Below, piece by piece: positions 1-15,815 of a DNA stretch of 64,000 nucleotides. Position 1 is the stretch's first letter, and each line of letters opens with the position of its first letter. The notes under the pieces were generated by a model that ran no database searches, was not told where the DNA came from, and worked only from the letters and a program-made list of their open reading frames with translations. The stretch lies in contig NZ_VFMN01000001.1 of assembly GCF_006715055.1 (NCBI RefSeq), positions 1,922,001-1,986,000 of the forward strand. The letters are read 5' to 3'. This stretch comes from Lapillicoccus jejuensis (GTDB lineage Bacteria > Actinomycetota > Actinomycetes > Actinomycetales > Dermatophilaceae). A program made the position numbers and the translations under genes.

Positions 1-294
1 GTACGTGAGGTCGGCCGCGAGCTCGCCCTTGCGCTGCGGCGTGCCGACGCAGAGGAAGTGCACCTCGCAGTCGGCGGCCTGCGCCAGGTCGGTGGTGAAC
101 CGCAGCCGGCCGGTCCCGAGCATCGCGGTGAGGAGCTCGGGCAGACCCGGCTCGTGGAACGGGACGACGCCGGCGTTGAGGCTGGCGACCTTGGCCGGGT
201 CGACGTCGATGCCGACGACGTCGTGGCCGATCTCGGCCATCGCGGCCGCGTGGGTGGCGCCGAGGTAGCCGGTGCCGATGACGGAGAGCTTCAC
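1..294 (-). CDS. UDP-glucose/GDP-mannose 6-dehydrogenase family protein (N-terminal part)
   Basis: Only the first 98 codons lie in the window; the gene runs off the left edge. It begins with GTG at 294, and AGGAGG lies a few bases upstream. The start reads VKLSVIGTGYLG, the NAD-binding Rossmann loop of nucleotide-sugar dehydrogenases, and continues with an acidic strand end (GIDVD) and the family motifs NAGVVPFHEPGL and LCVGTPQ. Members oxidise UDP-glucose to UDP-glucuronate, or related sugars, with NAD+. It is the last visible gene of a leftward operon, 39 bp after the GH26 gene, next to a hyaluronan-synthase-like polymerase. UDP-glucuronate supply for that polymer is therefore the best inference. 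A GDP-mannose or UDP-ManNAc dehydrogenase cannot be excluded from the N-terminus alone. Confidence 0.88.
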   Translation of the reverse strand, partial: MKLSVIGTGYLGATHAAAMAEIGHDVVGIDVDPAKVASLNAGVVPFHEPGLPELLTAMLGTGRLRFTTDLAQAADCEVHFLCVGTPQRKGELAADLTY

Positions 295-333
295 GGGTGT
301 CCTCCTGGGACGATGCTGACGAGGAAGGGAGGT

Positions 334-2106
334 TCAGGGGGTGGTGTCGGCGTCGAGACCGACCATGCCGGTGCGGAAGACGTCCGACGCGATGTCGGTG
401 ACGAACTGCTTCTGCGCCGCCGGGTTGCTGACGAAGCGCCAGTCGTTGCTGATCGGGATGCCGTCGACGACCTGGGTGGCGATGTTGTTGTTCCACAGGA
501 ACCCGACGATGCGCGGGTCCGCCGCGAACGCCGACAGGGTGTTGTGGATGAAGTCCGTCTTGAGCCCCGCCTCGTCGGTGGTGCCGTCGGTCTCGATGGC
601 GCCGACCTCGCAGAAGAAGATGGGCTTGCTCGTCGTCGCCTTGAGCGCGGTGACCGTCTTGGCGAAGCTGGCGTCGTACGTCGACCCGGTGGTGGCCCGC
701 CGCAGGTAGACCGAGGCGCCCACCCAGTCGACGTACTGGTCGCCCGGGTAGTCGTCGGCCATCGCGGTGATCCCGTTGGTGGGGCTGGGCTTGAGGTTGT
801 CGACGCGGCTCGGCGACCAGATCCACACGACGTTGTCGTTGGCGCCGACCGACTGGAAGACCTGCCACACGTGGATCCAGGCCTGCTTGAACTTGTCGGG
901 CGAGTTGTTGAAGTCCTTGCGGCCCGCCGACCACGGGTACCAGCCGCCGTTCATCTCGTGGCCGAAGCGGATGCCGACCTGGAGGTTGGTCCGGACGACG
1001 TCGCCGGCGAACTTGCGCAGGTAGTCGTCGTTCGCGCCGGAGATGATGGTCGAGAGGCTGTAGTGGTTGCCGCTCTGGCCGTTGTCCGTGGGCATCCACG
1101 TCATGACCGGCAGGGCGCCGCGCCGCCACGCGTTGGTGACGAGGTCGCCCCGGAAGGTGTCGTCGAAGGACTCGTACCAGCCGACCGAGCTCGGCGCCTT
1201 GCCGGCGGCGGCCTCGACGGTGTCGAACATCGTCGTGTCACCCGGCAGCCCGTCCTGGGAGAAGCCGAAGTACTTCGTCGTCGAGCCGACGATGGTGGCC
1301 TTGGTCTGCGCCGACGCCTTCGGGGCGACGTACTGCCCGACGGGGATCGAGGCGGCGCGGTTGGGGTCGACCGGCAGGTCGCTGCAGGCCAGGCCGTCGG
1401 CGTCGTACGGCCCCGGCAGGCCGTCGAGACCGTAGGGGTCGGACAGGTTGGCGACGTAGACCGCCTGCGCGTCCTGCTGCCAGTCGAACTGCCAGCACTT
1501 GGTCTTGGCCGGCGGCGCCGTCGTCGTCGGCGAGCTCGGCGTGCCGCCCGTCGGGCTCGTCGTGCCGGCCGGGTCGCTCGGGGTCGGCGTCCCCGTCGTG
1601 TTCGGCGTCGCGGGACCCGGCGCCGGCACCGGCACGGTGCGCGTGAACACCGTGCTCGGCGTGCGGACGGTCACCGTGTAGCCCGCTCCGCGCGCGAAGA
1701 ACGCGGAGGACGACAGCGGTGCGCGCAGCGCCGACACCGACGAGGCCGTGCCGCCTGTGCGGGTGCCGGTGGTCCTGCGGCCGGAGGAGGTCGAGACCGA
1801 CGGGGCGTACGGCGCCCCGTACCGCGACCGCACCACGGACCCGGTGACGGAGCCGGTCGACACCGGTCGCGGCTCGGACGCGGCGGACGGCACCGACAGG
1901 TTGCGCTGCACCTCCTGGCGCAGCGGCGAGGCGACGGGCGAGAGGTAGAGCCCGGCCGAGATCGACGTGAGGGCCAGCACCAGCAGCGACAGGTTGAGCT
2001 TGCTCACCCGGACGATGCCGTCGGGCGGCGTGACCGCCGGCGTCACCGCCGGCGGCGTCGTCGACGCCACGGGCGCGGTGGTCTGGTCAGCGGACGTGGA
2101 TGTCAT
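334..2106 (-). CDS. Membrane-anchored glycoside hydrolase family 26 (beta-mannanase-like) protein
   Basis: A 590-residue protein. Residues about 37-56 form one membrane anchor after a Thr/Pro-rich cytoplasmic tail. A Ser/Thr/Pro-rich linker follows (roughly 60-200), then a GH26-type barrel. The motif GHEMNGGWYPW near residue 385 carries the expected acid/base Glu, and FFCEVGA near 499 carries the expected nucleophile Glu. GH26 enzymes hydrolyse beta-mannans or mixed beta-glucans; here the enzyme would face outside the cell. Its start overlaps the end of the GT2 gene by 20 bp, so translational coupling is likely. Inference: it trims, releases or edits the polymer made by the adjacent synthase. 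The substrate is unknown, and beta-mannanase activity is not assured. Confidence 0.87.
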   Translation of the reverse strand: MTSTSADQTTAPVASTTPPAVTPAVTPPDGIVRVSKLNLSLLVLALTSISAGLYLSPVASPLRQEVQRNLSVPSAASEPRPVSTGSVTGSVVRSRYGAPYAPSVSTSSGRRTTGTRTGGTASSVSALRAPLSSSAFFARGAGYTVTVRTPSTVFTRTVPVPAPGPATPNTTGTPTPSDPAGTTSPTGGTPSSPTTTAPPAKTKCWQFDWQQDAQAVYVANLSDPYGLDGLPGPYDADGLACSDLPVDPNRAASIPVGQYVAPKASAQTKATIVGSTTKYFGFSQDGLPGDTTMFDTVEAAAGKAPSSVGWYESFDDTFRGDLVTNAWRRGALPVMTWMPTDNGQSGNHYSLSTIISGANDDYLRKFAGDVVRTNLQVGIRFGHEMNGGWYPWSAGRKDFNNSPDKFKQAWIHVWQVFQSVGANDNVVWIWSPSRVDNLKPSPTNGITAMADDYPGDQYVDWVGASVYLRRATTGSTYDASFAKTVTALKATTSKPIFFCEVGAIETDGTTDEAGLKTDFIHNTLSAFAADPRIVGFLWNNNIATQVVDGIPISNDWRFVSNPAAQKQFVTDIASDVFRTGMVGLDADTTP

Positions 2107-3499
2107 AGAGGACTCCGAGGGGGACGAGGGCGGTCACGAGGAGGTAGGGGATCAGTCCGCGCGGGTCACCGCTGACCAGCGCGGGGAGGGGCCGCGACCG
2201 GGTGGGACCCCCGGCCGGGACGGTGGAGGGGGTGGCGGCGTCGCCGGCCTGGTCGGCGCTGTACGCCGCCGCCCGGGTGCCCCAGCCGCCGACGTGCCCG
2301 AGGCGCAGGAAGCCGTAGGCGCGGATGGGCATGAGGAAGGCGGTGGAGAACAGGACGTAGGCGGGCAGCCACAGCAGGTCGCGCGGACGCTCCTCGATGT
2401 GGCGCAGCTGGCGGATCGTCATGCCCAGCGCCGAGAGCAGCATGGTGATGGCGACGATGCCGGGCAGCATCCACGGCCGGCCGGAGGCGTTGAGCAGACC
2501 GGCGTACAGGTTGACGTCCGAGCCGTTCCACCACCGGATGCACCAGGCGACGAGGATCGTCGCGAGGAGCATCGGCATGACGATGTCGCTGACGAAGAAG
2601 AAGGCCAGCACGGGCGTGTGCCGCAGCATCCACGGCAGCATCCGCAGGGTGTTGTACTGGCTGCCGCGCGACCACCGCAGCTGCTGCTTGAGCAGCTTGC
2701 GGATCTGCAGGGGGGCGTCGGTGTAGCACAGGCTCGTGGACTGGTAGACGGTGCGGAACCCCTTCTTGAGCGTGAGGTTCGTCAGGGTCCGGTCGTCGGA
2801 GACCTCGAGGAAGACGCCGAGGAAACGCTGGTTCATGAAGTCGTCCATGACGTCGACGAGGATCGAGCGGCGGAAGGCGATCGTGCGCCCCGGCAGGCAG
2901 CCGACCGACCCGAGCACGCTCTGGGCCGGCATCGAGTACTGCGCGCGGGTGTTCTCCATCCAGTCCGCCCAGCGGGTGTAGAACGAGCGCTCCGGCTCGA
3001 GGATCCGTTGGCGCGTGGTGACCCCGCCGATCGCCTTGTCCGCGAAGGGCTTGACCAGCTCAGGGAGCGTCCCCGGCGTCCACACGGTGTCGCTGTCGAC
3101 GAGCAGGACGATCTCGCCGGAGCAGCGCTCGACGCCGACCTTGACCGCGTTGCGCTTGCCCGCGATCGGCGTCCAGGTCCACTGCACGTGCGGCGCGAAC
3201 TCCTCGCAGACCCGCTCGAGGTCGGGGTTGCGGGGACCGTTGATGACGACGACGGTCTCGGTCGGCCCCTGCTCGACGATGCGGCGCAGGACGTCGCGGA
3301 AGAGGTCGAGCGGCTCGTCCACGACGGGGATGACGACGCTCGTCGTGCACGAGTACGGCGCCCGCCACGGCCGGTAGCGCGCGGCGAGACCGACCTTGGC
3401 GAGCCACACGACCCAGGTGAGGGCGACGTAGAAGATGAACAGGTAGAGGTGGCCGTGCTCCGTGAGGGCATGGCGCAGCTGCAGGAGGGCGATGAACAC
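2087..3499 (-). CDS. Processive family 2 glycosyltransferase, hyaluronan-synthase-like
   Basis: A 470-residue membrane glycosyltransferase. I start it at GTG 3499, six bases past the acyltransferase stop, because the upstream in-frame stretch is acyltransferase shadow. N-terminal hydrophobic segments precede a GT2 domain with TSVVIPVVDEP, VDSDT near residue 136 (DxD), SDDRTLTN near 234 and QQLRWSRGS near 270. That order (DxD, DDR-LTN, QxxRW) is that of hyaluronan, chitin and cellulose synthases; the LTN and LRWSRG context looks most like class I hyaluronan synthase. At least three further membrane segments follow. It would polymerise and extrude a polysaccharide from nucleotide sugars. Neighbours are a nucleotide-sugar dehydrogenase, a GH26 and an O-acyltransferase. 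The polymer itself is not predictable. Confidence 0.9.
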   Translation of the reverse strand: MFIALLQLRHALTEHGHLYLFIFYVALTWVVWLAKVGLAARYRPWRAPYSCTTSVVIPVVDEPLDLFRDVLRRIVEQGPTETVVVINGPRNPDLERVCEEFAPHVQWTWTPIAGKRNAVKVGVERCSGEIVLLVDSDTVWTPGTLPELVKPFADKAIGGVTTRQRILEPERSFYTRWADWMENTRAQYSMPAQSVLGSVGCLPGRTIAFRRSILVDVMDDFMNQRFLGVFLEVSDDRTLTNLTLKKGFRTVYQSTSLCYTDAPLQIRKLLKQQLRWSRGSQYNTLRMLPWMLRHTPVLAFFFVSDIVMPMLLATILVAWCIRWWNGSDVNLYAGLLNASGRPWMLPGIVAITMLLSALGMTIRQLRHIEERPRDLLWLPAYVLFSTAFLMPIRAYGFLRLGHVGGWGTRAAAYSADQAGDAATPSTVPAGGPTRSRPLPALVSGDPRGLIPYLLVTALVPLGVLYDIHVR

Positions 3500-3504
3500 G
3501 GCGA

Positions 3505-5763
3505 TCAGGCTCCGGTCGTGGTGAGGACGGGGGCGAGCACCGGCGCGAGCCACCGGCTGAAGGGCACGGTCAGGTGCGACTCGTTGCGGTAGACCAGGAC
3601 GTTGCCGACGACCGCCGGGCAGCGGGTCGCCGTGCACAGCCACGGTGCCGGGTCGAGCACCGGCACGGAGGCCGTGGCCAACGCGGGCGCCAGGGCGGCG
3701 TGCCGGTCGGGGTAGCGGTAGGCGGCCGACCGGTCGTAGGTGCACGGCCGCACGTCGTCCAGGTGCGTCGCGACGCAGCCCGGCAGGTCGGTCCCCGGGG
3801 TCGGGATGTCCTGCACGTAGGCGACCCTCGGCGCCCCGGCGGAGCGCAGCGCCCGCACCGTCGCGACCGTCGCGGCCGAGAAGGCCTGCGGCACCACGCT
3901 GCTCGAGGCGACGTTCTCGCTCTGGCTCACGACGACGAGCGCCGGGTGCAGGGCGCCGATCCGCGCCACGGTGGCGTCGCGCCAGGTGTCGCACTCGGTG
4001 TAGCTGCGCCCGAGCGAGGGGTTGTCGACGGTGAGCCGCGCCGCCGGGCACGCGGCCTTGGTCCAGCTGACGACCTGCCAGTGCTGGGCCTTGCCGAGCT
4101 GGTCGAGCGCGGGCAGCCACTGCTCGGCGTGCGAGTCGCCGAAGAGGACGAGCGTGCGGGCGGCGGTGAGGTCGCCGTACCGGCAGTCGCCCTGGCTGAC
4201 CGCGGTGAAGCCGGCGTGGCAGCCGTTGCGCGAGGTCGGCGGGAGCGAGTCGGCGGCGTCCTGCGGCAGGGGCGTGAGGTTCGAGGGGACCTGGACGGTC
4301 CCCACGGCCGCGGCGACGGTCCGCGCGACGGCCTGCTCGGCGGCGCTGGTGGCCGCGCTCGCGGCCGGCCCCGTGCCCGCCACCGCCGGGGCGACGGTGA
4401 CCGCGGCCGCGCCCGGGGCGTCGACGGAGGCGAGGACCGCGGCGGCACCGGTCCCGGTGGTGACCGGGCCGAGGACCATGACCAGGGCGGAGCAGGCGGT
4501 GACGACGCCGCCCAGGGTCGCGCCCGTCCCGATCCAGCCCCAGGTCGGCCAGTGCAGGAGGCGCACCGGCTGCTCGACCCACGTGAAGGAGGCGATGGCG
4601 AGGACCAGCGAGACCCACACGACCGCGAGCCGCTCACCGACGCCGAGGGCGTGCCCGAGGGCGTACGGCGCCACGACGAGCAGCGGCCAGTGCCAGAGGT
4701 ACCACGAGTAGGAGACCCGCCCGAGGCACTGCACGAGCGGCTCGCCGAGCAGCCGCTCGGCCCCGACCCGCGGGCCGCAGCCGGACGCCACGACGAGCGC
4801 CGCCCCGCCGACGGGCAGCCAGGCGGCCACACCGGGGAAGGGGGTCGCGTCGGTGAACCGCACGGCGGCGACCGCGATCGCGGCCAGCCCCAGCCAGGCG
4901 GCGAGACCGGCGAGCCGGCGCGGGAGCGCGACGAGCCGCGGCGCGGCGAGGGCGAGCAGCGCGCCGACGCCGAGCTCCCAGGCGCGGGTGTGCAGCGAGA
5001 AGTAGGCCCACGGCGCGTTGGCCGGCGTGAGGGTCGCCGACGCCCAGCCCGACGCGGCGACGACGCCGACGACGAGCAGGGCCAGGACGAGGCGCAGGTG
5101 CCGGCGCCGGGTGGCCACCGCCACGACGGCGATGACGAGCGGCCAGACGACGTAGAACTGCTCCTCGACCGCCAGCGACCAGAAGTGCTGCAGCGGGCTG
5201 GCCGCCGCCCCCATGTGCTGGTAGTCCGTGCCGACCCACGCGAGGCGGTAGTTCAACCCCGAGAACGCGGTGAAGAGCGCGTCGGTCGCGACGTCGCGGA
5301 CCTTGAGCGGCGGCCCGACGAAGCGGAACGCCACCGTCGTCGCGAGGACGACGACGACCGCGGCCGGCAGCAGCCGGCGCACGCGGTGCCCGTAGAAGGT
5401 CGGCAGCGCGCGCAGCCCGCCCCGGCCGACGCTCTTCAGCAGCTGGCGCGTGATGAGGAAGCCGGAGATGACGAGGAAGACGTCGACGCCGACGTACCCA
5501 CCGGGCAGGGCGAGCCCCGCGTGGTAGACGACGACCGCGACGACGGCGAGCGCGCGCAGGCCCTCGATGTCGGGGCGGAAGTCGCGGTCGGCCGGCCGCC
5601 GGCGAGCGGCGAGCACGCGGCGGGCGCGGCGGGCGCGTCCGGTGGTGAGGGGGGCGGGGGAGCGACCGGCTCGGCGGTGCCCGACCAGCCCCGCGGGCGC
5701 GGGGGAGCGCACGAGGGTGCTGACGGAGGACACGACGGAGGGGGTCGGCGAGGTGGCGGTCAT
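3505..5763 (-). CDS. OafA-type acyltransferase 3 with C-terminal SGNH domain
   Basis: I place the start at ATG 5763 (752 residues) because the 65 codons upstream are AT-richer and unlike coding sequence; GGAG lies about 12 bases upstream. After a basic cytoplasmic tail, FRPDIEGLRALAVVAVVVYHAG (split here as FRPDIEGLRAL and VVVYHAG) opens the ten-helix acyltransferase-3 domain, with the catalytic His near residue 79. A Thr/Ala-rich linker leads to an extracytoplasmic SGNH domain with FGDSHAEQW near 542. The terminal motif is YRNESHLT, where the usual Asp three residues before His is Asn. Such proteins acetylate exported polysaccharides. It is the first gene of the leftward operon with the GT2, GH26 and dehydrogenase genes, so O-acylation of that polymer is likely. 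Confidence 0.92.
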   Translation of the reverse strand: MTATSPTPSVVSSVSTLVRSPAPAGLVGHRRAGRSPAPLTTGRARRARRVLAARRRPADRDFRPDIEGLRALAVVAVVVYHAGLALPGGYVGVDVFLVISGFLITRQLLKSVGRGGLRALPTFYGHRVRRLLPAAVVVVLATTVAFRFVGPPLKVRDVATDALFTAFSGLNYRLAWVGTDYQHMGAAASPLQHFWSLAVEEQFYVVWPLVIAVVAVATRRRHLRLVLALLVVGVVAASGWASATLTPANAPWAYFSLHTRAWELGVGALLALAAPRLVALPRRLAGLAAWLGLAAIAVAAVRFTDATPFPGVAAWLPVGGAALVVASGCGPRVGAERLLGEPLVQCLGRVSYSWYLWHWPLLVVAPYALGHALGVGERLAVVWVSLVLAIASFTWVEQPVRLLHWPTWGWIGTGATLGGVVTACSALVMVLGPVTTGTGAAAVLASVDAPGAAAVTVAPAVAGTGPAASAATSAAEQAVARTVAAAVGTVQVPSNLTPLPQDAADSLPPTSRNGCHAGFTAVSQGDCRYGDLTAARTLVLFGDSHAEQWLPALDQLGKAQHWQVVSWTKAACPAARLTVDNPSLGRSYTECDTWRDATVARIGALHPALVVVSQSENVASSSVVPQAFSAATVATVRALRSAGAPRVAYVQDIPTPGTDLPGCVATHLDDVRPCTYDRSAAYRYPDRHAALAPALATASVPVLDPAPWLCTATRCPAVVGNVLVYRNESHLTVPFSRWLAPVLAPVLTTTGA

Positions 5764-6003
5764 GGGAGGAGGGGGCTCCTGGGCCGGGGCGTGGGGTGAC
5801 CTCCGCGCGGGGAGGCGGAGGGTGTCGGGAGCGGCGCCGATGCCGTCGGCCGCGACATGTCCACTTTGTCGGTTCGGGACGGATCGCCACCACCCGCAAA
5901 ACGTTGTCTTTCGGTCAAGAAACGGCATGTTAAGCGGATATTTCCTGAACCGACCCACTTGCTCTCCGGTGCAGGACGCCTCCCCCGAGGTGGGTCGTCC
6001 CCC
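5764..6003 (-). promoter_or_regulatory. Probable promoter region of the exopolysaccharide operon
   Basis: This 240-bp gap lies between the acyltransferase start and the end of the next leftward gene. Positions about 5895-5955 are clearly AT-richer than anything nearby (CGCAAAACGTTGTC, GTTAAGCGGATATTTCC). This is where the operon promoter should lie, reading leftward. I could not assign a convincing -35/-10 pair. The leftward reading contains GGAAA, 17 bases, GTT, loosely like an ECF sigma promoter, but this is weak. Confidence 0.4.
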
Positions 6004-6891
6004 TCAGGTCCGGCGCCAGGCGTCCCCCGGGGGCGCCGGCGACGGCTGCGGGTCGGCCGCGGTGAGGGGCCGCGCCGACCGGGCCATCCGGGTCACGTCG
6101 GCGCCGCGGCGCAGCCCCGTCGGCAGCGCCTCGCGGGCGACCTCGCGCGCCAGCGCCGCGACGTCGAGCGGCGCGCCGCCCACCCGCGTCGCGGCGAGCA
6201 CGACGTTGCCGAAGCGTCGTCCCTTGAGCACCTCGCCGGTCGCGAGGAGCACCGGCGCCCCGTACGACGCCCCCTCCGCGCCCGCCGTCGCGACCGTCGC
6301 GACCGTCGCGACCGTCGCGACGACCCGCGAGACCCACCGCAGCCCGGGCTCGTCGGTGAGGTTCATCAACAGGGTCCCGCCGGGTCGCAGCACCCGGGCC
6401 ACGTCGGCGAGGTACTCCCGGGTCACGAGCCCGGCGGGGACCCGGCCACCGGCGAACGCGTCGACGACGACGGCGTCCGCGCTCGCGTCGCGCAGCGCCG
6501 CGGTGCCGGGCTCACCGGCGACCGGCCGCACGCGGATCCGGTGCCGACGCGGCAGCGGCAGCTCGCGCCGGACCAGCTCGGTGAGGGCGCTGTCGGGCTC
6601 GAGGACGACCTGCGGCGAGCCCGGCCGCGTCGCCTCGACCCAGCGGGCCAGCGTCATCGCGGCGCCGCCGACGTGGGTGACGGCGAGCGGCGCGGGCGGC
6701 GGCGGGGTCAGCGTGCGCAGGACGAGCGCGAGGTGGGCGACGTACTCGAAGGCGAGCAGGTGCGGGTCGCCCGGGTGGACGTGCGACTGCGGGGCGCCGT
6801 CGACGAGGACGGTCACGCCACCGCGGTCGTCGGGCACGAGCCGGACCCGGTCCCCGGCCACCTCGTCCCGCCGCCGGCCACCGCCTGTCAC
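6004..6891 (-). CDS. Spermidine-synthase-like / methyltransferase-fold protein
   Basis: A 295-residue protein starting with GTG at 6891. The order of segments is that of the spermidine synthase / class I methyltransferase fold: LLAFEYVAHLALVLRTL, then a glycine loop VTHVGGAAMTLARW, an acidic strand end VVLEPD, VVVDAF, and VLRPGGTLLMNL. No N-terminal aminopropyltransferase beta-domain of normal size is evident, so the true substrate is unclear. Actinobacterial homologues are usually annotated spermidine synthase or fused-MFS-like. A 9-bp unit repeated four times (6287-6322) encodes a Val-Ala-Thr run near residue 190. It is divergent from the 6914 gene with only 22 bp between starts. Confidence 0.75.
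   Translation of the reverse strand: MTGGGRRRDEVAGDRVRLVPDDRGGVTVLVDGAPQSHVHPGDPHLLAFEYVAHLALVLRTLTPPPPAPLAVTHVGGAAMTLARWVEATRPGSPQVVLEPDSALTELVRRELPLPRRHRIRVRPVAGEPGTAALRDASADAVVVDAFAGGRVPAGLVTREYLADVARVLRPGGTLLMNLTDEPGLRWVSRVVATVATVATVATAGAEGASYGAPVLLATGEVLKGRRFGNVVLAATRVGGAPLDVAALAREVAREALPTGLRRGADVTRMARSARPLTAADPQPSPAPPGDAWRRT
6287..6322. repeat. 9-bp tandem repeat, four copies, in frame
   Basis: GTCGCGACC is repeated three times and followed by GTCGCGACG. It lies inside the spermidine-synthase-like gene, where each unit adds three residues (Thr-Val-Ala on the coding strand), so copy number changes would not shift the frame. Confidence 0.9.
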
Positions 6892-6913
6892 CGGCTCAGC
6901 CTAGGGTCGGACC

Positions 6914-7792
6914 ATGACCACCCTGCGCGTCGGCGTCACCGTCCTGCCGGAGCTGCGCTGGCGCGAGGCCGAGCCGCGCTGGCGCGCCGTCGAGGACCTC
7001 GGCTTCGACCACGGCTGGACCTACGACCACCTCGTCTGGGGCGGCCTGCCGCAGTCGCCCTGGTACGGCACCACCCCCACGCTCGCCGCCGCCGCGCTCG
7101 TCACGAGCCGGATCGGGCTGGGCACCTTCGTCACGAGCCCGAACTTCCGGCACCCGGTGACGCTGCACCGCGACGTGCAGTCCCTCGACGACCTCTCGGG
7201 CGGCCGCTTCGTCCTCGCCGTCGGCGCCGGGGCCACCGACGTCGACGCCCGCATCCTCGGCCTGCCCGCGCTGTCGGCGCGCGAGCGCGCCGACCGGTTC
7301 CACGAGTTCGTGCGCCTGGCCAAGCGGCTGCGCGACGAGGACCACGTCAGCCAGGAGGGCCGCTGGTTCTCGGCCGACGACGCGCGCACCCTCCCGCGCG
7401 TCGAGCACGTGCCGATCGTCGTCGCCGCCGGTGGCCCCCGCGGCATCGACCTCGCCGCCGAGGTCGCCGACGGCTGGATGACGCTCGGCCGCCGCACCGA
7501 CGACCTCGAGCAGTGGTACGACGGCCTGCGCGAGGAGGGCGGTCGGCTCGACGACCGCCTGGCCGCCCACGGCCGCGACGCGGCGAGCGTCGCCCGCTAC
7601 GTCAACCTCGACTCCTCGCCGCGCTTCAGCCTCGAGTCGGTCGACCTGTTCGAGGAGATGGCCGGCCGCGTCGCCGACCTCGGCTTCACCGACGCCATCA
7701 CGCACTGGCCCCGGGCCGAGTCGCCGTACGCCGGCGCGCAGGCCACCCTCGAGGCGGTCGCCGCCGACGTGCTGCCCCGGCTGCGCGGCTGA
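6914..7792 (+). CDS. LLM-class flavin/F420-dependent oxidoreductase
   Basis: A 292-residue luciferase-like (TIM-barrel) monooxygenase. Features are the N-terminal strand LRVGVTVLPE, GWTYDHLVWGG, the stretch TSRIGLGTFVTSPNFRHPV, LDDLSGGRFVLAVGAG, VVAAGGPRGIDLAAEVADGW, and a C-terminal half typical of F420- or FMN-linked members. The substrate is not predictable. A TAGGGT box at 6902-6907 sits six bases before the ATG, so the transcript is probably leaderless. The stop overlaps the start of the SCP2-like gene (TGATG), indicating co-translation. Confidence 0.87.
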   Translation: MTTLRVGVTVLPELRWREAEPRWRAVEDLGFDHGWTYDHLVWGGLPQSPWYGTTPTLAAAALVTSRIGLGTFVTSPNFRHPVTLHRDVQSLDDLSGGRFVLAVGAGATDVDARILGLPALSARERADRFHEFVRLAKRLRDEDHVSQEGRWFSADDARTLPRVEHVPIVVAAGGPRGIDLAAEVADGWMTLGRRTDDLEQWYDGLREEGGRLDDRLAAHGRDAASVARYVNLDSSPRFSLESVDLFEEMAGRVADLGFTDAITHWPRAESPYAGAQATLEAVAADVLPRLRG

Positions 7793-8169
7793 TGCCGCCG
7801 CGTCGTCGTACCGACCCCGCCGCCGGCCGCTCCGCCCTCGAGGCGGTCCGGGCCGCGGGCGGCGACCCGTCGGGTCTGGACCGCGCCACGGTCGGGGCCG
7901 CGGTGCGCTACACCCTCGAGGAGTTCGCGGTCCGCCACCCCGGCCGCTCGGTCGAGCTGCGGGTGCCGCCGTACGGCGCCGTGCAGGGCATCGAGGGCCC
8001 CACGCACAAGCGCGGCACCCCGCCCAACGTCTTCGAGACCGACGCGGCGACCTGGCTGGCCCTGGCCACCGGGACGCTGGCCTGGGACGAGGCGCTGGGC
8101 TCCGGCGCCGTCCGGGCCAGCGGCCTGCGGGCCGACCTCGCGCCGTACCTGCCCCTCGGTGCGCTGTGA
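7792..8169 (+). CDS. Sterol-carrier (SCP2-like) family protein
   Basis: A 125-residue protein beginning MPPRRRTDPAAGRSALEAV. It resembles the small actinobacterial 'sterol carrier family protein' that commonly lies just before purF: an N-terminal helix, YTLEEFAVRHPGRSVELRVPPYGAVQ, the conserved GPTHKRGTPPNVFETDAATWLALATG and a short C-terminal amphipathic helix. SCP2 folds bind lipids or hydrophobic ligands, but the role of this subgroup is unknown. Its start overlaps the stop of the oxidoreductase by one base, so the two are probably one transcript. Confidence 0.85.
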   Translation: MPPRRRTDPAAGRSALEAVRAAGGDPSGLDRATVGAAVRYTLEEFAVRHPGRSVELRVPPYGAVQGIEGPTHKRGTPPNVFETDAATWLALATGTLAWDEALGSGAVRASGLRADLAPYLPLGAL

Positions 8170-8189
8170 GCGCGACCTACCCTGGACCC

Positions 8190-8396
8190 ATGCCCCGTCG
8201 CTCACCCGCCTTCCTGCGCTGGATCGGCACCGGCGCGGTCGTCGGCTTCCTCGTCGGCCTCGTCATGGCGGTCGTCTCGGCTGACGCCGCCAACTACGGT
8301 CTCGGCTCGCAGGTGGCCTACCTCGGGGTGATGTTCGCCTTCCTCGGCGCGCTGCTCGGGGCGCTCGTCGCCGTCCTCGTCGACCGCCGCGCCTGA
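8190..8396 (+). CDS. Small two-helix membrane protein
   Basis: A 68-residue protein with two hydrophobic helices: IGTGAVVGFLVGLVMAVVS and LGVMFAFLGALLGALVAVLV. I prefer ATG 8190 because TACCCT at 8178-8183 lies six bases upstream, the leaderless arrangement seen for many genes here. GTG at 8166, overlapping the previous stop, is the alternative. Such small proteins often precede purF in actinobacteria. Function is unknown. Confidence 0.7.
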   Translation: MPRRSPAFLRWIGTGAVVGFLVGLVMAVVSADAANYGLGSQVAYLGVMFAFLGALLGALVAVLVDRRA

Positions 8397-8456
8397 CCCG
8401 CCCACGCCTCGGGCGGCGGCGGTGGGCGGCCAGGTCGCTGTGCGAGACTGAGGCAC

Positions 8457-10061
8457 GTGGCTCGCGGAGACGGACGACTCTCGCACGACCTCGACTCCCT
8501 CCAGGGGGGTGACAAGGGCCCGCAGGACGCCTGCGGCGTGTTCGGCGTCTGGGCCCCCGGGGAGGATGTCGCCAAGCTGACGTACTTCGGGCTCTACGCG
8601 CTGCAGCACCGCGGCCAGGAGTCCGCGGGCATCGCCACCGGCGACGGCAGCAAGATCCTCGTCTACAAGGACATGGGGCTGGTCAGCCAGGTCTTCGACG
8701 AGACCGCCCTGTCCTCGCTGCGCGGGCACCTGGCCATCGGCCACACCCGCTACTCCACGACCGGCGGCTCGACGTGGGAGAACGCCCAGCCGACCCTCGG
8801 GGGCGGCGGTGACAGCACCGTCGCGCTCGCCCACAACGGCAACCTCATCAACACCGTCGAGCTGCGCGACCTCGTCACCGAGCGCCTCGGCGCCGGCGCC
8901 TCGCGACGCGGTGAGCTCGGCCGCGGCAACACCAGCGACACCGCCCTCGTCACGACGCTGCTCGCCGCCGACCCGGACCGCAGCCTCGAGGCCACCGCGC
9001 TCGAGGTCCTCCCGCTGCTGCGCGGTGCGTTCTGCTTCGTCTTCATGGACGAGAACACGCTGTACGCCGCCCGCGACCCGTACGGCGTGCGCCCCCTCGC
9101 CCTCGGACGGCTCGAGCGCGGCTGGGTGGTCGCCTCCGAGACGGCCGCGCTGCAGACCATCGGGGCCAGCGTCGTGCGCGAGATCGAGCCCGGCGAGCTC
9201 GTCGTCATCGACGAGAACGGGCTGCGCTCGCACCGCTTCGCCGAGGCCCAGCCCAAGGGCTGCGTCTTCGAGTACGTCTACCTCGCCCGGCCCGACGCGG
9301 TCATCCGCGGCAAGGTCGTCCACGAGGCGCGCGTGGAGATGGGGCGGCAGCTGGCCCGCGAGCACCCCGTCGAGGCCGACCTCGTCATCGGGGTGCCGGA
9401 GTCGGGCGTGCCCGCCGCGGTGGGGTACTCGCAGGAGTCGGGGATCCCCTTCGGGCAGGGCTTCGTCAAGAACGCCTACGTCGGGCGGACCTTCATCCAG
9501 CCCTCGCAGACGCTGCGGCAGCTGGGGATCCGGCTCAAGCTCAACGCCCTCGAGCACACGATCCGTGGCAAGCGGCTCGTCGTCGTCGACGACTCGATCG
9601 TGCGCGGCAACACCCAGCGCGCTCAGGTGCGGATGCTGCGCGAGGCGGGCGCCGCCGAGATCCACGTGCGGATCTCCAGCCCGCCCATCACCTGGCCGTG
9701 CTTCTACGGCATCGACTTCGCGACCCGGGCCGAGCTCATCGCCACCGGGCTCGGCGTCGAGGAGATCCGCGCGTCGATCGGCGCCGACTCGCTCGGCTTC
9801 ATCTCCGAGGAGGGGATGACGGGCGCGACCGAGCAGCCGCCGAGCCAGCTGTGCACGGCGTGCTTCACCGGCCGCTACCCGATCGAGCTGCCCGAGGACG
9901 GGCGGATCGGCAAGCACGTCCTCGAGACGCTGCCGATCTCGGTCCGCACCGGCCACGACGCGGCCCTCGACCTCGGGGTCGACGAGCGGACCGAGCGCGA
10001 CGCCGAGGGCGTCCCCCTCGGGCTCGGCGGCGGGGCCGCCGACGCGCTGCTGCGCCCCTGA
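8457..10061 (+). CDS. purF: Amidophosphoribosyltransferase
   Basis: A 534-residue enzyme for the first committed step of purine synthesis (PRPP plus glutamine to phosphoribosylamine). A 25-residue propeptide precedes DACGVFG, whose Cys26 becomes the N-terminal nucleophile after processing. LQHRGQESAGIA and the class II glutaminase domain follow. The C-terminal phosphoribosyltransferase half has VVVDDSIVRGNT near residue 376 (PRPP loop) and the conserved QLCTACFTGRYPIELP tail, whose cysteines, with others, would bind a 4Fe-4S cluster as in the Bacillus-type enzyme. A GAGACT box ends seven bases before the GTG, so it may be leaderless. purM follows after one intervening gene. Confidence 0.97.
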   Translation: MARGDGRLSHDLDSLQGGDKGPQDACGVFGVWAPGEDVAKLTYFGLYALQHRGQESAGIATGDGSKILVYKDMGLVSQVFDETALSSLRGHLAIGHTRYSTTGGSTWENAQPTLGGGGDSTVALAHNGNLINTVELRDLVTERLGAGASRRGELGRGNTSDTALVTTLLAADPDRSLEATALEVLPLLRGAFCFVFMDENTLYAARDPYGVRPLALGRLERGWVVASETAALQTIGASVVREIEPGELVVIDENGLRSHRFAEAQPKGCVFEYVYLARPDAVIRGKVVHEARVEMGRQLAREHPVEADLVIGVPESGVPAAVGYSQESGIPFGQGFVKNAYVGRTFIQPSQTLRQLGIRLKLNALEHTIRGKRLVVVDDSIVRGNTQRAQVRMLREAGAAEIHVRISSPPITWPCFYGIDFATRAELIATGLGVEEIRASIGADSLGFISEEGMTGATEQPPSQLCTACFTGRYPIELPEDGRIGKHVLETLPISVRTGHDAALDLGVDERTERDAEGVPLGLGGGAADALLRP

Positions 10062-10170
10062 CGACGCCCTCGTGCGCCGGATCGGCGTACGGTGCCTCCC
10101 GGCCCGTGGCACACTGGCGGCCAAGACCTACTTGAACGGTAGGAATTGACAGGGGATGCAGGAGGACACG

Positions 10171-12987
10171 GTGGCCGGGGCGGACGTTCACAGCGACACG
10201 CAGGGGTACGACGCAGCGGGTCACCCGGGTCCGGCCCGGGTCGCCGTCGTCGGCGCGGGACCGGCCGGCACGCTCGTCGCCGCGGCCCTGGCCCGGCTCG
10301 GCGCGCTCCCGACCGGCCTCGAGGTGCTGCTCGTCGACGACGACGCCGGCGACGGCCGCGGGACGGCGTTCTCCACCTCGTGCCCGGACCACCTGCTCAA
10401 CGTGCGGGCCCGCGACCTGTCGGCCCGGCCGGAGGTCGCCGGCGACTTCGTCGACTGGGTCCGCGCGCACCGCGACCCGGCCGCCGGACCCGACGACTTC
10501 CTCCCGCGCGGGTGGTTCGGCGACTATCTCGCCGCCCTGCAGTCGCAGCTGCTCGCGCCCGACGCCACCGACGCCACCGACGCCATCGACGCCACCGGCG
10601 TGACCGTCCGCCGGGTGCCGGCCGGCGCGCTGGCGGTCGACGAGTCCGGTGAGGGGGCCGAGCGCCGCACGGCGCTGGTGCTGCGCTCGGGGGAGCGGCT
10701 GCCCGTCGACGCCGTCGTGCTCGCCGTCGGGACGGAGCGGCCCGGCCTGGACTGGGTGCCGCCGACCCTGCTCGCCTCCGACCGGCTCGTCGCCGACCCC
10801 TGGCGCCCGGGAGCGCTCGACCGACCGGCGGGCGCGCCTCCGGGTACCGTCCTCGTCGTCGGCACCGGGCTGACGATGGCCGACATCGCCCTCACCGTCG
10901 CCGCCGACGGCGACCGCGTCGTCGCCCTGTCGCGGCGCGGCCGCCTCCCCCTGCCGCACAGCGCGCAGCGCCGCGCCCCGCGCCCGTCGACCGCGCTCAC
11001 CGCCGCCATCGGCGACCAGGTCGCGCTGCCGGCGGAGCGCGTGGAGCGGCTCGTGCGCGAGCACCTGCTCGCCGGCGCCCGCGGCGGCGACTGGCGACCC
11101 GCGATGGACGGCTTGCGCCCGCTCACCGCCCTGCTGTGGCAGCGGGTGCCCGAGGACGAGCGCCGCGCCCTGCTGCGCGACGGGATCCCCGCGTGGGAGG
11201 TGCGCCGGCACCGGATGCCCCCGGCCACCGCCGCGGCCCTGGCCCGGCTGCGCCGCGAGGGCCGGCTGGAGGTGCGCCGCGGCGAGGTCGCCGACGTCGA
11301 GCCGCTGCCCGACGGCCGGCTGCTCGTCGCGCTCGCCGACGGCGGGCGCGTCGTCGTCGACCGGGTCGTCAACGCCACGGGGCCCGAGCGCGAGGTCTCC
11401 CGCAGCCGCAACCCCGTCGTCGTCGACCTGCTCGCCTCGGGCCTGGGCACCGCCGGACCGCTCGGCATGGGGCTGGCGACCGACCCCGGTGGCCGGCTGC
11501 TGGGGCGTCGTACGGCCCCGGCGGTGTGGGCGGTCGGCGCGCTGCGCCGCGGTGAGCTGTGGGAGACCACGGCCGTCCCCGAGCTGCGGGCACAGGCCGT
11601 CTCGGTCGCCGCCCAGGTCGTCGCCCGGCTGCGCACCCGCCCGACCGCCACGGGTCCCGCGAGCCGGCCGCAGGTCCCCCGTCGGGACCGTCCGTCGCGC
11701 CCGCTCGACCGGCACGGCAACCCCCTGACGACGACAGCCGAGGCCGCGGCAGCGTTCGACCGCGGCCTGCTGCGGGTGCTGCGCGTCCAGTCCGGCGCCG
11801 AGGAGGCCTTCGCCGAGGCGGTCCGCCTCGACGGGGGGTTCGCGCTCGGGCACGCCGCGCTGGCCCTGGTCACCCACGAGCTCGGGTCGACGGGGGACCC
11901 GGCGGAGGCGCTCGCCACCGCCCGGGCCACGCTCGACCACCGGGCGACCGACCGCGAGCGCAGCCTCGTCGACGTCGTCACCCGCCGCCTGCACGGCACG
12001 CGCCTCGACGGCGACCGCGCGCTGCGGGCCCACGTCGACGCCTTCCCGCGCGACGGGCTCGCGGTGAGCGTCGCCGTCCCGACCATCGCCTTCTCCGGCG
12101 TCACCGACCTGCAGCACGAGGCGTGGGCGCTCGTCGAGTCGCTGCGCCCGGCCTGGGGGGACGACTGGTTCTTCACCGGGCTGCTCGCCTTCGTGCGCCA
12201 GGAGCAGGGCCGGTACGACGAAGCCGACCGCCTGTCCGCCCGTTCCCTCGCGCGGGAGCCGGGCGCCGGTCACGCCGTGCACGCCCGCACCCACGTGTTC
12301 TACGAGACCGGCGCGCACGCCGAGGGTCTGCGGTGGCTCGACGGCTGGATCCGCGGGGGCGGGCACGAGGCCTCGCACCGGGCGCACTTCGCCTGGCACG
12401 CGGCCCTGCACGAGCTCGCCCTCGGCTCCGTCGAGGACCTGCGGCGCCGCTACGAGGCCCAGCTCGCCCCGCCGATGGTGTCCGGCGTGCGGGCCCTCGT
12501 CGACTCGGCGTCGCTGCTGTGGCGGTGTCGGGTCACCGGCAGCTGGGACGACGAGCTGCCCGTCCGCGCGGTGCTCGACAGCGTCGACGACCGGCTGCTG
12601 GCGCAGCCGACGACGCCGTTCACCGCCCTGCACGCGGCGGTCGCCCTCGCCGCGGCGCGCGACGTCGCGGGGCTGGCCCGGCTGCGGGCCCACGCCGCCG
12701 CGCGGCCGCACCCGGTCATGCGCGACGTCGTCGTCGCCCTGTGCGACGCGCTCACCGCGGTCGCCGAGGAGCGCTGGGACGACGCCGTCCGGACCCTGCG
12801 GCTGCTCGGGCCGTGGGTGGCCCAGCTGGGCGGCAGCGACGCGCAGCGCGAGGTCGTCGAGGAGACGCTGCTGCTCGCGCTCGTCCGGGCCGGACGGTGC
12901 GGCGAGGCGCGCCGGCTGCTCGAGGCCCGGCTCGACCGGCGCCCGTCGCCGATCGACACCCGGCGTCTCGCGGGCGTCCCGGGCTGA
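10171..12987 (+). CDS. FAD/NAD(P)-binding oxidoreductase fused to a TTC38-like TPR domain
   Basis: About 938 residues from GTG 10171, which has AGGAGG five bases upstream; ATG 10156 is an in-frame alternative. Residues about 25-33 form the dinucleotide-binding loop VAVVGAGPAG. The next 450 residues match the FAD-NAD(P)-binding family: GTAFSTSCPDHLLNVRARDLS, VVGTGLTMADIAL, VVNATGPE, PLGMGLATDPGGRLLG. After a Pro/Arg linker, residues about 515-938 form an alpha-helical domain similar to tetratricopeptide repeat protein 38 (AAAAFDRGLLRVLR, ALVESLRPAWGDDWFF, HAVHARTHVFYETGAHAEG). I know of no defined function for this combination. It sits between purF and purM. A 9-bp in-frame repeat lies near 10561. 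Confidence 0.82.
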   Translation: MAGADVHSDTQGYDAAGHPGPARVAVVGAGPAGTLVAAALARLGALPTGLEVLLVDDDAGDGRGTAFSTSCPDHLLNVRARDLSARPEVAGDFVDWVRAHRDPAAGPDDFLPRGWFGDYLAALQSQLLAPDATDATDAIDATGVTVRRVPAGALAVDESGEGAERRTALVLRSGERLPVDAVVLAVGTERPGLDWVPPTLLASDRLVADPWRPGALDRPAGAPPGTVLVVGTGLTMADIALTVAADGDRVVALSRRGRLPLPHSAQRRAPRPSTALTAAIGDQVALPAERVERLVREHLLAGARGGDWRPAMDGLRPLTALLWQRVPEDERRALLRDGIPAWEVRRHRMPPATAAALARLRREGRLEVRRGEVADVEPLPDGRLLVALADGGRVVVDRVVNATGPEREVSRSRNPVVVDLLASGLGTAGPLGMGLATDPGGRLLGRRTAPAVWAVGALRRGELWETTAVPELRAQAVSVAAQVVARLRTRPTATGPASRPQVPRRDRPSRPLDRHGNPLTTTAEAAAAFDRGLLRVLRVQSGAEEAFAEAVRLDGGFALGHAALALVTHELGSTGDPAEALATARATLDHRATDRERSLVDVVTRRLHGTRLDGDRALRAHVDAFPRDGLAVSVAVPTIAFSGVTDLQHEAWALVESLRPAWGDDWFFTGLLAFVRQEQGRYDEADRLSARSLAREPGAGHAVHARTHVFYETGAHAEGLRWLDGWIRGGGHEASHRAHFAWHAALHELALGSVEDLRRRYEAQLAPPMVSGVRALVDSASLLWRCRVTGSWDDELPVRAVLDSVDDRLLAQPTTPFTALHAAVALAAARDVAGLARLRAHAAARPHPVMRDVVVALCDALTAVAEERWDDAVRTLRLLGPWVAQLGGSDAQREVVEETLLLALVRAGRCGEARRLLEARLDRRPSPIDTRRLAGVPG
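10561..10596. repeat. 9-bp tandem repeat, four copies, in frame
   Basis: GACGCCACC occurs twice, then GACGCCATC, then GACGCCACC. It encodes a run of Asp-Ala-Thr/Ile units in the FAD-TPR fusion protein. The length and copy number match the unrelated repeat at 6287-6322. Confidence 0.9.
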
Positions 12988-13021
12988 GGCCCGGGGGCGC
13001 GGCGCCGATACGCTGGCGGGC

Positions 13022-14143
13022 GTGACTGACGACGCGCCGATCACCTATGCCGCCGCCGGGGTCGACGTGGAGGCGGGTGACAAGGCCGTCGAGCTGATGA
13101 AGGCGGCCGTCGCGCGGGCTCAGCGCCCCGAGGTGCTCGGCGGCCTCGGCGGGTTCGCCGGGCTGTTCGACGCGAGCGCGCTGGCCCGGATGAGCCGTCC
13201 GGTGCTCGCGACGTCGACCGACGGCATCGGCACCAAGGTCGCCATCGCCCAGGCCCTGGACCGCCACGACACGATCGGGCTCGACCTCGTCGGCATGGTC
13301 GTCGACGACATCGTCGTCTGCGGGGCCGAGCCGCTCTTCATGACCGACTACATCGCGACCGGCAGGGTCGTCCCCGAGAGGGTCGCCGCCATCGTGTCCG
13401 GCATCGCCGCCGGCTGCGCCCAGGCCGGCTGCGCCCTCGTCGGCGGCGAGACCGCCGAGCACCCCGGGCTGCTCGAGCCGGACGAGTACGACGTCGCCGG
13501 CGCCGCGACCGGCGTCGTGGAGCACGCCGACCTGCTCGGGCCCCAGCGGGTCCGCGCCGGGGACGTCGTCGTGGCCCTGGCCAGCAGCGGGCTGCACTCC
13601 AACGGCTACTCGCTGGTGCGCCGGGTCGTCGCCGCCGCGGGCTGGGCGCTCGACCGCGACGTGCCGGAGTTCGGCCGCACCCTCGGTGAGGAGCTGCTCA
13701 CCCCCACCCGGGTGTACGCCGCCGACCTGCTGGCCCTCGTGCGCACGCCCGGCGTCGACGTGCACGCGCTCAGCCACGTCACCGGGGGCGGCCTCGCCGC
13801 CAACCTGGCGCGGGTCCTGCCCGGCGGGGTCACCGCCGTCGTCGACCGCGCCACGTGGACCCCGCCCGCCGTGTTCGGGACCGTCGCCGCGCTCGGCCGC
13901 GTGCCACGGGCCGACCTCGAGCGCACCCTCAACCAGGGCGTCGGGTTCGTCGCCGTCCTGCCCGCCGAGGACGCCGACGAGAGCCTCGCCGTCCTCCGCT
14001 CGCGCGGCATCGACGGGTGGGTCGCCGGCCGCGTCCACGCGGACGAGGACGCGCCGTACGGCGACGCGGTGGAGACCGTCCGCGGCGCCAAGGGCGTCGA
14101 CGGCGGGTCGGTCCGGATGGTCGGCGAGCACCCGCGGGCCTGA
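13022..14143 (+). CDS. purM: Phosphoribosylformylglycinamidine cyclo-ligase
   Basis: A 373-residue AIR synthetase, the fifth step of purine synthesis: ATP-dependent closure of FGAM to AIR. Signatures are TYAAAGVDVEAGD at the N-terminus, STDGIGTKVAIA (ATP loop), GLDLVGMVVDDIVVCGAEPLFMTDYIA, LVGGETAEHPG and ASSGLHSNGYSLVR, all in the usual order. A TACGCT box at 13009-13014 ends seven bases before the GTG, so a leaderless transcript independent of purF is likely. The C-terminus ends near the convergent HNH gene. Confidence 0.97.
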   Translation: MTDDAPITYAAAGVDVEAGDKAVELMKAAVARAQRPEVLGGLGGFAGLFDASALARMSRPVLATSTDGIGTKVAIAQALDRHDTIGLDLVGMVVDDIVVCGAEPLFMTDYIATGRVVPERVAAIVSGIAAGCAQAGCALVGGETAEHPGLLEPDEYDVAGAATGVVEHADLLGPQRVRAGDVVVALASSGLHSNGYSLVRRVVAAAGWALDRDVPEFGRTLGEELLTPTRVYAADLLALVRTPGVDVHALSHVTGGGLAANLARVLPGGVTAVVDRATWTPPAVFGTVAALGRVPRADLERTLNQGVGFVAVLPAEDADESLAVLRSRGIDGWVAGRVHADEDAPYGDAVETVRGAKGVDGGSVRMVGEHPRA

Positions 14144-14193
14144 CTCCTCCCGTCGTCTCCCCACGTCGTCTCCCCCCGTCGTCGCCTCCCCGG

Positions 14194-15801
14194 TCACGCT
14201 GCACGCTCCCGGACCGCTGCCGGTTCGGTGGCGTACGTGCGTCCTAGGGGCGAGGTCCACGTGCAGATCCCGTCGGTGGTGAGGGCGTAGGTCCACGGTG
14301 TGTGGGTCTTGAAGCGGTGGTGGGTGACGCAGAGGCAGGCGAGGTTGTCGACGGTCGTGGGGCCGGTGGGGAACGGGACGACGTGGTCGAGCTGGGTGCG
14401 GGCGGCGGGGACGGAGCAGCCGGGGAAGCGGCAGTGGCCGTCGCGGGCGCGTACCGCTCTGGCGACCGCGACGGCGGGTCGGTAGGTCGTCGGGTCGTGG
14501 GTCAGGAGGGCGCCGGTCCTCGGGTGGCACCCGTGGAGGCGTACCCGGGTGTCGGGGTCGGCCAGCAGTCTGGCGACCGCCTCGGCGAGGACGAACCCGA
14601 CCATGGGGTGCTGCACCCCGATCGACCAGCCGATCGACCAGCCGACCGACCAGCCGACCGCCGGATCCGCAGGGGCGGCGGCCCGGGGTGGTCTCGACGA
14701 CGGCGGCGGGTCCGTTGGTGCGCCGCCGGTCGTCGGGACGAGATGGAGGTCCCGCTCCTGCTCGGCGACCTCCACGAGCGCGGCCAGCCCACGCTCGGCC
14801 ACCGACCACGTGAGGTCGGGGACCAGACTGAGCGCCGGGCGGCGATCGCCGTGCACGTCGGTTATGGAGGCATCGGCCCCGCGATCGTCTACCACGCCGT
14901 CGCCTGCCATGCCGACCGTCTCGGGCCAGGCGTCGAGGGGGACGGTCAGGTCGACCGTCGTCGTGATGGTGGCCCGACCGAGGACGAGCGAGACCAGCGC
15001 CTGGGCCCGGGCCGGACCGACGGTGAGGGACGGGTCGGCCCGCAGGTACTCCCCCGCCAGCTCGTCGATGGCCGCCCACACGGACAGCGAGTCCTCGGAC
15101 GGCAGCGACGCCGACCAGGTGCTCATCCCGGGGTCCAGGCCGGGTCCGACGCGCACGAACGCGTCGCGTCGGGCGCTCTCGGCCCGCCGCTGCTGGGACT
15201 CGGGGTCGACGTGGGCCGCGGCCGCGGCGACGCGCTTGCGCAGGGCCGGGACGTCGAGGTCGGTGGGGCCGAGGCGGTACCGCGTCGACACGAGCTCGGG
15301 GTGGACGACGGCGTCGTCGTACGCCGGACGGTGCTCACGGGCGACCTCGAAGGCCTGGTGGGCGACGACCCGCGCGCGGGCCAGGTCGAGCCGGCCGGCG
15401 CGCACGAGCCCGAGGGTCTGCGGCAGGTCCCGGGCGAGCATGCGGGCGTCGTCGAGCAGCGCGCTCACCGCCCGACGGCCCAGCCGCAGCGCGGGGGCCA
15501 GCTCGACGGCGGCGACGTCGTCCCCCTCGGGACCGAGGGCGCACCTGCCTCTCGCGCGCAGGTCGGCCTTGTCCTGCTCCACCTCCTCGACCGTGCGGCG
15601 GGCGAAGGCCTCCAGGGCCAGCACCTGGATCGCGTCCAGTGCCGAGGTCGCCCGGCGGACCAGCTCCACGACGGCCAGCGCCTCGTCGACCTCGAGGTCC
15701 ACCAGGGCGGTGTCCGTCAGCGACTCGAGGTCCGGGACGACACCCAGCGGCGAGCGCAGGCCGTCACCGACCTGCTCCATGGTCCCCCGCCACCCGGTCA
15801 T
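14194..15801 (-). CDS. DUF222 / 13E12-type HNH endonuclease-like protein
   Basis: 535 residues from ATG 15801, with GAGGAG at the right distance upstream. An N-terminal DUF222 helical domain (SALDAIQVLALEAFARR, LRLGRRAVSALLDDARML, AGRLDLARARVVAHQAFE) is followed by a C-terminal HNH module with GHCRFPGC, QLDHVVPF, NLACLCVTHH. This is the 13E12 repeat family of actinobacteria. Its promoter carries a perfect mycobacterial SOS box, matching the known DNA-damage control of 13E12 genes in Mycobacterium. A three-copy 12-bp in-frame repeat (14620-14655) encodes Gly-Trp-Ser-Ile/Val units between the domains. Nuclease activity is plausible but unproven for this family. Confidence 0.93.
   Translation of the reverse strand: MTGWRGTMEQVGDGLRSPLGVVPDLESLTDTALVDLEVDEALAVVELVRRATSALDAIQVLALEAFARRTVEEVEQDKADLRARGRCALGPEGDDVAAVELAPALRLGRRAVSALLDDARMLARDLPQTLGLVRAGRLDLARARVVAHQAFEVAREHRPAYDDAVVHPELVSTRYRLGPTDLDVPALRKRVAAAAAHVDPESQQRRAESARRDAFVRVGPGLDPGMSTWSASLPSEDSLSVWAAIDELAGEYLRADPSLTVGPARAQALVSLVLGRATITTTVDLTVPLDAWPETVGMAGDGVVDDRGADASITDVHGDRRPALSLVPDLTWSVAERGLAALVEVAEQERDLHLVPTTGGAPTDPPPSSRPPRAAAPADPAVGWSVGWSIGWSIGVQHPMVGFVLAEAVARLLADPDTRVRLHGCHPRTGALLTHDPTTYRPAVAVARAVRARDGHCRFPGCSVPAARTQLDHVVPFPTGPTTVDNLACLCVTHHRFKTHTPWTYALTTDGICTWTSPLGRTYATEPAAVRERAA
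14620..14655. repeat. 12-bp tandem repeat, three copies
   Basis: GATCGACCAGCC occurs twice and then GACCGACCAGCC, with a partial fourth copy. It encodes four-residue Gly-Trp-Ser-Ile/Val units in the linker before the HNH domain. Confidence 0.9.
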
Positions 15802-15815
15802 CGCCGTCTCCTCGT

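Follow-up and report, generated by a model that had tools for sequence, protein, structure and literature searches.

Class I hyaluronan synthase (HAS) operons combine hasA with hasB, that is, one membrane GT2 with a UDP-glucose dehydrogenase, and to our knowledge they contain neither a GH26 gene nor an acyltransferase gene. In the type 3 capsule locus of Streptococcus pneumoniae, in which we know of no GH26, the UDP-glucose dehydrogenase (UGD) is Cps3D. The capsule itself is described in the accessible part of one source as an alternating GlcA-Glc polymer, produced in synthase-dependent fashion by a single synthase, Cps3S (PMC12220298). The operon considered here, from the soil-type actinobacterium Lapillicoccus jejuensis, resembles the HAS operons in its membrane GT2 and UGD, HAS being the nearest solved GT2, but its GT2 lacks the Gly300 and Arg348 of HAS. 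It would resemble the type 3 capsule in scheme, namely a single synthase in a synthase-dependent system, a likeness drawn from the published description.

PelA, PgaB and CcsZ belong to other hydrolase families and accompany other synthases than the GT2-GH26 combination. Excerpts of three papers report a hydrolase encoded with the synthase for Pel (PelA), PNAG (PgaB) and clostridial cellulose (CcsZ), which are alike in joining a synthase to its cognate hydrolase (PMC12022489, PMC5933820, PMC7710045). Among actinobacteria, the wps-1 cluster of Actinoplanes missouriensis is an exopolysaccharide cluster with a GH26, WpsE, and a GT2; in the accessible text, a Wzx/Wzy route is predicted, the GT2 is grouped with galactofuranosyltransferases, and deletion of WpsE leads to partly abnormal sporangia (PMC13390465). 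Compared by description, wps-1 is alike in being an actinobacterial exopolysaccharide cluster with GH26 and GT2, but unlike in its predicted Wzx/Wzy route and in the grouping of its GT2. Among the papers listed by searches of open PMC text, none describes a GT2-GH26-UGD or similar actinobacterial operon. By analogy, the operon would represent a synthase-dependent surface-polysaccharide system, capsule-like in the manner of type 3 and hyaluronan, with an added hydrolase.

Layout of the locus

The window, that is, the whole stretch of 64,000 nucleotides analysed, corresponds to G000:C1:1922001-1986000 of the 4.58-Mb, single-contig genome. The four open reading frames (ORFs) at its start all lie on the minus strand, as in the initial annotation. 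The tight leftward packing that it described agrees with the ORF coordinates, with a 5-nt gap between OAC1 and the GT2, a 20-bp overlap of GT2 and GH26, and a 39-nt gap between GH26 and the dehydrogenase. The operon extends past the window edge through the full dehydrogenase and a second AT3-SGNH acyltransferase, beyond which lies a convergent purL-like gene, identified by eye.

3505..5763, minus strand: OAC1, AT3-SGNH O-acyltransferase, 752 aa (ATG at 5763; PF01757, PF19040)
2087..3499, minus strand: GT2, HAS-like polysaccharide synthase, 470 aa (GTG start; PF13641; HAS matches in the PDB)
334..2106, minus strand: GH26 hydrolase, 590 aa (PF02156; lichenase top in the PDB by sequence and by fold)
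1..294, minus strand: first 98 codons of UGD, the remainder lying beyond the window edge
G000:C1:1920993-1922294, minus strand: UGD, whole gene, 433 aa, crossing the window edge
G000:C1:1918665-1920752 (= L009:10665-12752): OAC2, second AT3-SGNH acyltransferase, an ATG-start ORF after UGD, outside the window

Purine genes flank the operon by eye, purL-like at one end and purF-like (8457-10061) at the other, and a luciferase-like monooxygenase lies at 6914-7792. In a second genome of the genus (G002, locus L016), purL-like, luciferase-like and 295-aa genes likewise adjoin, again by eye. Isolated spots of weak DNA similarity occur elsewhere in the L. jejuensis genome. Rfam gave zero families at gathering score across window positions 1-20000. 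A signal scan of L010 500-10300 gave no promoter-like sites, sigma-70 patterns being of little use in this G+C-rich genome, and one terminator-like site, inside the GT2, against 1.1 expected.

The GT2 synthase and its GH26 partner

The GT2 matches PF13641 in Pfam (4.7e-24, scored on the longer ORF 2087-3592) and shares with class I HAS the GT2 fold and the DxD, DD(R) and QxxRW motifs, here DSDT, SDDR and QQLRW. Residues D135, D137, D235, D236, R237, Q272, R275 and W276 are invariant in 20/20 aligned rows, and L025 has the motifs too. When a profile of 11 GT2 orthologues was run against the PDB, hyaluronan synthases were the sole matches at 1e-8 (best 1.7e-20). Modelling against HAS, cellulose and chitin synthases had been proposed as a check and, on a weak model (mean pLDDT 59.7), HAS came nearest by fold, filling the top 13 rows; a mannosyltransferase, BcsA and chitin synthase followed. 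Membrane helices are seen in this low-confidence model, which is too weak for subsite analysis. The NCBIfam match is NodC, whose cut-off of 550 bits lies above the 119.3 bits scored. K177 and R341, which contact GlcA in CvHAS, are conserved in the GT2; the motifs that hold them are general to processive GT2s and thus not specific, and these residues were dropped as proof of UDP-GlcA use. The accessible text of one source lists Gly300 of GDD and Arg348 as HAS-conserved positions (PMC12987647), and the GT2 departs at both: the Gly300 position is Ser in 21/21 loci, and the Arg348 position, by HMMER alignment, is Tyr in the 20 aligned rows, with the same motif in L025. The HAS flavour first ascribed to the enzyme stands as far as its nearest solved relatives go; the GT2 is HAS-like, with HAS identity not supported at two HAS-conserved positions.

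The GH26 scores 48.8 bits with PF02156 (8.4e-13; cut-off 20.2) and, as first reported, has both catalytic Glu residues, E384 and E500 (P0004 numbering), which are invariant in 21/21 loci. An N-terminal hydrophobic segment is followed by a long linker and a lichenase-like catalytic domain, and the hydrophobic stretch, at about residues 37-57 by eye, is the basis on which the enzyme is predicted to be tethered outside the membrane. GH26 enzymes take Glc, Man or Xyl chains as substrates, the lichenase substrate being beta-1,3/1,4 glucan. A GH26 profile against the PDB gave 166.7 bits for the lichenase CtLic26A (named Endoglucanase H), 57.1 for the best mannanase and 37.4 for the xylanase AlXyn26A. 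In Foldseek, lichenase occupied ranks 1-7, rank 1 being a transporter complex that has Endoglucanase H as its chain C and ranks 2-7 having TM(target) of 0.85-0.88. In the accessible parts of the literature, most of the GH26 enzymes that have been characterised are mannanases (PMC13390465, PMC6556568) and lichenases form a separate branch of a published GH26 tree (PMC6556568). A plain mannanase was rejected on the scores above, and the nearest structures predict the lichenase and not the mannanase branch. A lichenase-like GH26 would fit a chain with both beta-1,3 and beta-1,4 linkages.

Between the linker and the GH26 domain lies a segment without a Pfam match, CWQF...DADGLACSDLP (window 1370-1500), which recalls Excalibur calcium-binding domains; similar segments occur in L016, L017, L018, L022 and L023. 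In addition, four loci have another GH26, encoded on the opposite strand and running towards the GT2-GH26 pair: L021:4999-5985, L024:13282-14466, L025:13355-14521 and L026:13306-14577.

Distribution of the gene set

Orthologues were drawn from a scan of genome contigs (8 loci), 58 relatives and 396 genomes of the order, giving 21 loci with L017 and its identical twin L020 counted once. Gene counts are from six-frame ORFs; the gene caller missed at least three UGDs (L059, L060, L066) and several GT2s. GT2 and GH26 are neighbours on one strand in 21/21 loci, the contigs of L061 and L063 ending at the GH26. The hosts are Lapillicoccus, Streptacidiphilus, Microthrixaceae, Acidimicrobiia and Actinomycetales MAGs and a Melainabacteria-labelled MAG, together with three other families of the window's order. 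Among the named relatives found, a MAG with the label Lapillicoccus sp., placed in the window's genus (G001), is the closest; its GT2 is 82% identical and its contig is identical to L020. UGD directly follows GH26 in 10/21 loci (the window, L017, L058, L059, L060, L062, L064, L065, L066 and L067) and lies upstream, with one opposite gene between, in 3/21 (Streptacidiphilus). In L061 and L063 (2/21) the contig ends after GH26, and both genomes carry UGDs on different contigs, close to one of the contig's ends (G705 C17, G725 C81). No UGD was found near GT2-GH26 in 6/21 loci (L016, L018 and L027, ~19 kb; L021, L022 and L023, contigs of 5-11 kb).

An SGNH acyltransferase stands directly upstream of the GT2 in 4/21 loci (the window, L016, L017 and L018), a count that does not include an AT3-like gene ~3.4 kb upstream in L022. 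The initial annotation had read the four families as one set; they occur together in only 2/21 loci, the window and L017, and the four-gene set was rejected as a conserved unit. What is conserved is the GT2-GH26 pair, frequently accompanied by UGD, and acylation is a putative lineage addition. In the GT2 tree, Lapillicoccus has as its sister G039, a member of a different family (100 SH-aLRT), and the order's other families lie apart from these two; G039 and Lapillicoccus hold the four acyltransferase-bearing loci, so that one gain explains them. GT2 distances correlate with GH26 distances (r = 0.885, n = 20 loci), and common descent by itself would produce part of this correlation.

GT2 orthologues were found in 12 of the 396 genomes of the order, own genome included, all above 700 bits, the next score being 227.6. 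At 1e-90 the phylum sample gave the own genome only (1/396), and the 58 relatives gave four, own included, plus one second-shell match. Because the orthologue occurs within the family sample of 58 relatives only in the window's genus (3/3 genomes), and one of the two g38 genomes has it whereas it is absent at 1e-30 from the other, the patchy distribution suggests horizontal spread or repeated loss.

GT2s at or below 227.6 bits, against more than 700 for the orthologues, were treated as a second shell. No GH26 was found beside six second-shell GT2s in five loci of ~20 kb (the top 5 of 21 second-shell genomes), nor in 20 further-scan loci, which represent 19 distinct places (L015 lies within L019), most with 1.5-kb flanks; five of the 19 places are the same as the ~20-kb loci. 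In the loci covered, GH26 pairing is limited to the window's GT2 group. UGD, on the other hand, lies within ~3.5 kb of second-shell GT2s in 5/5 large loci (L068-L072). The GT2s of these loci retain GDD and have an Arg six residues past the Trp of QxxRW. In L068 and L071 the second-shell GT2 adjoins right-handed beta-helix proteins (PF13229), with one weak chondroitinase B match below cut-off, an arrangement reminiscent of systems that join a synthase to a lyase or an epimerase.

The window UGD scores 424 bits with a general NDP-sugar dehydrogenase model (cut-off 189.8). UDP-glucose dehydrogenase models give 373.6 (TuaD) and 360.2 bits, against 172.8 and 157.5 for UDP-ManNAc dehydrogenase models, and the short-type UDP-glucose model gives 127.4. 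PDB matches agree, at 325.9 bits for UDP-glucose, 172.3 for GDP-mannose and 141.2 for ManNAcA dehydrogenase. All NCBIfam equivalog models stay below their cut-offs (TuaD, 373.6 of 700). The initial suggestion that the enzyme could supply UDP-glucuronate is upheld in that it is predicted to be of the UDP-glucose 6-dehydrogenase type; a mannose or ManNAc dehydrogenase, which the initial annotation had named as a refuting outcome, was rejected (GDP-Man 172.3 and ManNAc 141.2-172.8 against UDP-Glc 325.9-373.6 bits).

A UGD-like gene is present at 1e-20 in 14/14 genomes of the order tested. At that threshold, G002 has only a short-type UDP-glucose dehydrogenase, elsewhere in its genome (best family PRK15057, 520 bits for a 337-aa piece, cut-off 757), and in G039 the UGD is on a separate contig from GT2-GH26. 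G559, G634, G786, G743, G715, G637 and G001 each have two UGDs of the long type, of which one adjoins GT2-GH26 and the other lies elsewhere. The window UGD is 66-70% identical to unlinked copies (G039, G559, G634, G786, G743, G715, G637), above its 60-64% identity to the operon-linked copies of other families, which would mean either that the three genes did not descend together as a block or that the tree is not resolved there. In that tree of 27 UGDs, which does not settle the order of groups or the exact place of the window copy, linked UGDs form three groups, each with support of 100: Lapillicoccus (window and L017), families f9/f14, and Streptacidiphilus. The f9/f14 group includes L089, L090 and L092, the G715, G705 and G634 copies, those of G715 and G634 being linked. 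This grouping argues against descent of the three genes as a single block and would fit a UGD that was recruited to GT2-GH26 more than once.

OAC1 matches both AT3 PF01757 (1.6e-27) and SGNH PF19040 (1.9e-35; scored on the longer ORF 3505-5958), as expected from its first description as an acyltransferase with an SGNH domain, and OAC2 is 57% identical to it. At 1e-20, OAC1 has three matches in its own genome, the two operon copies and a distant one (37%) elsewhere. The sole NCBIfam match of both is the mycobacterial polysaccharide succinyltransferase SucT (NF058601), at 265.6 bits for OAC1 and 252.8 for OAC2, both far below the cut-off of 1275. The catalytic blocks of AT3-SGNH enzymes are GDS and DxxH. 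GDSH is present in all five operon-linked copies, and the DxxH position reads N-x-S-H in four of them, including OAC1 and OAC2, and D-D-S-H in L018. No second acyltransferase was found after GH26 in G002 (L016).

Proposed mechanism and alternative readings

The enzymatic steps, the polymer and the editing role are here proposed from gene families, gene order, pairing and UGD linkage. UGD would convert UDP-glucose to UDP-glucuronate, and the membrane GT2 would polymerise UDP-GlcA with a second UDP-sugar, passing the chain out by way of a membrane domain of its own, like HAS and the type 3 capsule synthase. The tethered GH26 may then cut the nascent or finished chain outside the membrane, for length control or release, and in the window's lineage one or two AT3-SGNH enzymes may O-acylate the polymer. 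The general machine, one UDP-GlcA-using synthase with a hydrolase acting on that polymer, is considered probable (roughly 0.6). The GT2-GH26 pairing in 21/21 loci, the UGD linkage, HAS as the nearest solved GT2 and the lichenase-like GH26 argue for it; the six loci with no UGD nearby, the closeness of the window UGD to unlinked copies and the weak GT2 model argue against it. HAS-like synthesis combined with a lichenase-like hydrolase suggests an alternating beta-1,3/beta-1,4 chain, and Glc in place of GlcNAc as the partner sugar is a conjecture from the GH26 substrate range. A type-3-like product, linear, alternating beta-1,3/beta-1,4 GlcA-hexose with Glc as partner, is put forward tentatively as the likeliest product class, at less than even odds.

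The other readings differ in the polymer or in the task of the hydrolase. The GT2 might make a neutral beta-glucan or glucomannan that GH26 cuts, UGD serving another pathway; the lichenase-like character of GH26, the preponderance of mannanases among characterised members and the six pairs with no UGD alongside would suit this, whereas UGD directly after GH26 in ten loci, its proximity to the second-shell GT2s and a GT2 nearer HAS than cellulose or chitin synthase would not, and we regard it as unlikely. Nor can the catalytic Glu residues alone separate hydrolysis from transglycosylation, and from sequence GH26 could be a scavenging or transglycosylating enzyme, for example one anchoring the polymer to the wall, instead of an editor. 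In the window the GH26 reading frame overlaps that of the GT2, and GH26 is strictly paired with one group of GT2s; both would suit a dedicated part in synthesis, and a scavenging or transglycosylating enzyme is considered more improbable still.

The least credible of these readings is that the GT2 is a HAS making true hyaluronan (GlcA-GlcNAc). HAS enzymes are indeed its nearest solved relatives and UGD its partner, but the Ser at the Gly300 position in every locus weighs against this, and no GH26 is known to us to degrade hyaluronan.

The preferred reading is a synthase acting with a hydrolase on a UDP-GlcA-derived polymer. In its most specific form, which is speculative, the GT2 would belong to a new actinobacterial class of HAS-like heteropolymer synthases (SDDR, RWxRGSQYNT) making a type-3-capsule-like GlcA-Glc polymer with a dedicated, lichenase-like, chain-length GH26; the pair would have moved between lineages, with UGD and, on one occasion, acyltransferases added on the way. 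How HAS-like enzymes control chain length is described as unsolved in the accessible text of one source (PMC10939387). If the proposal is right, the pair would provide a minimal Gram-positive synthase plus hydrolase module, in environmental bacteria, in which HAS-like chain-length control could be studied, and may supply new enzymes for making polymers of the glycosaminoglycan-like kind.
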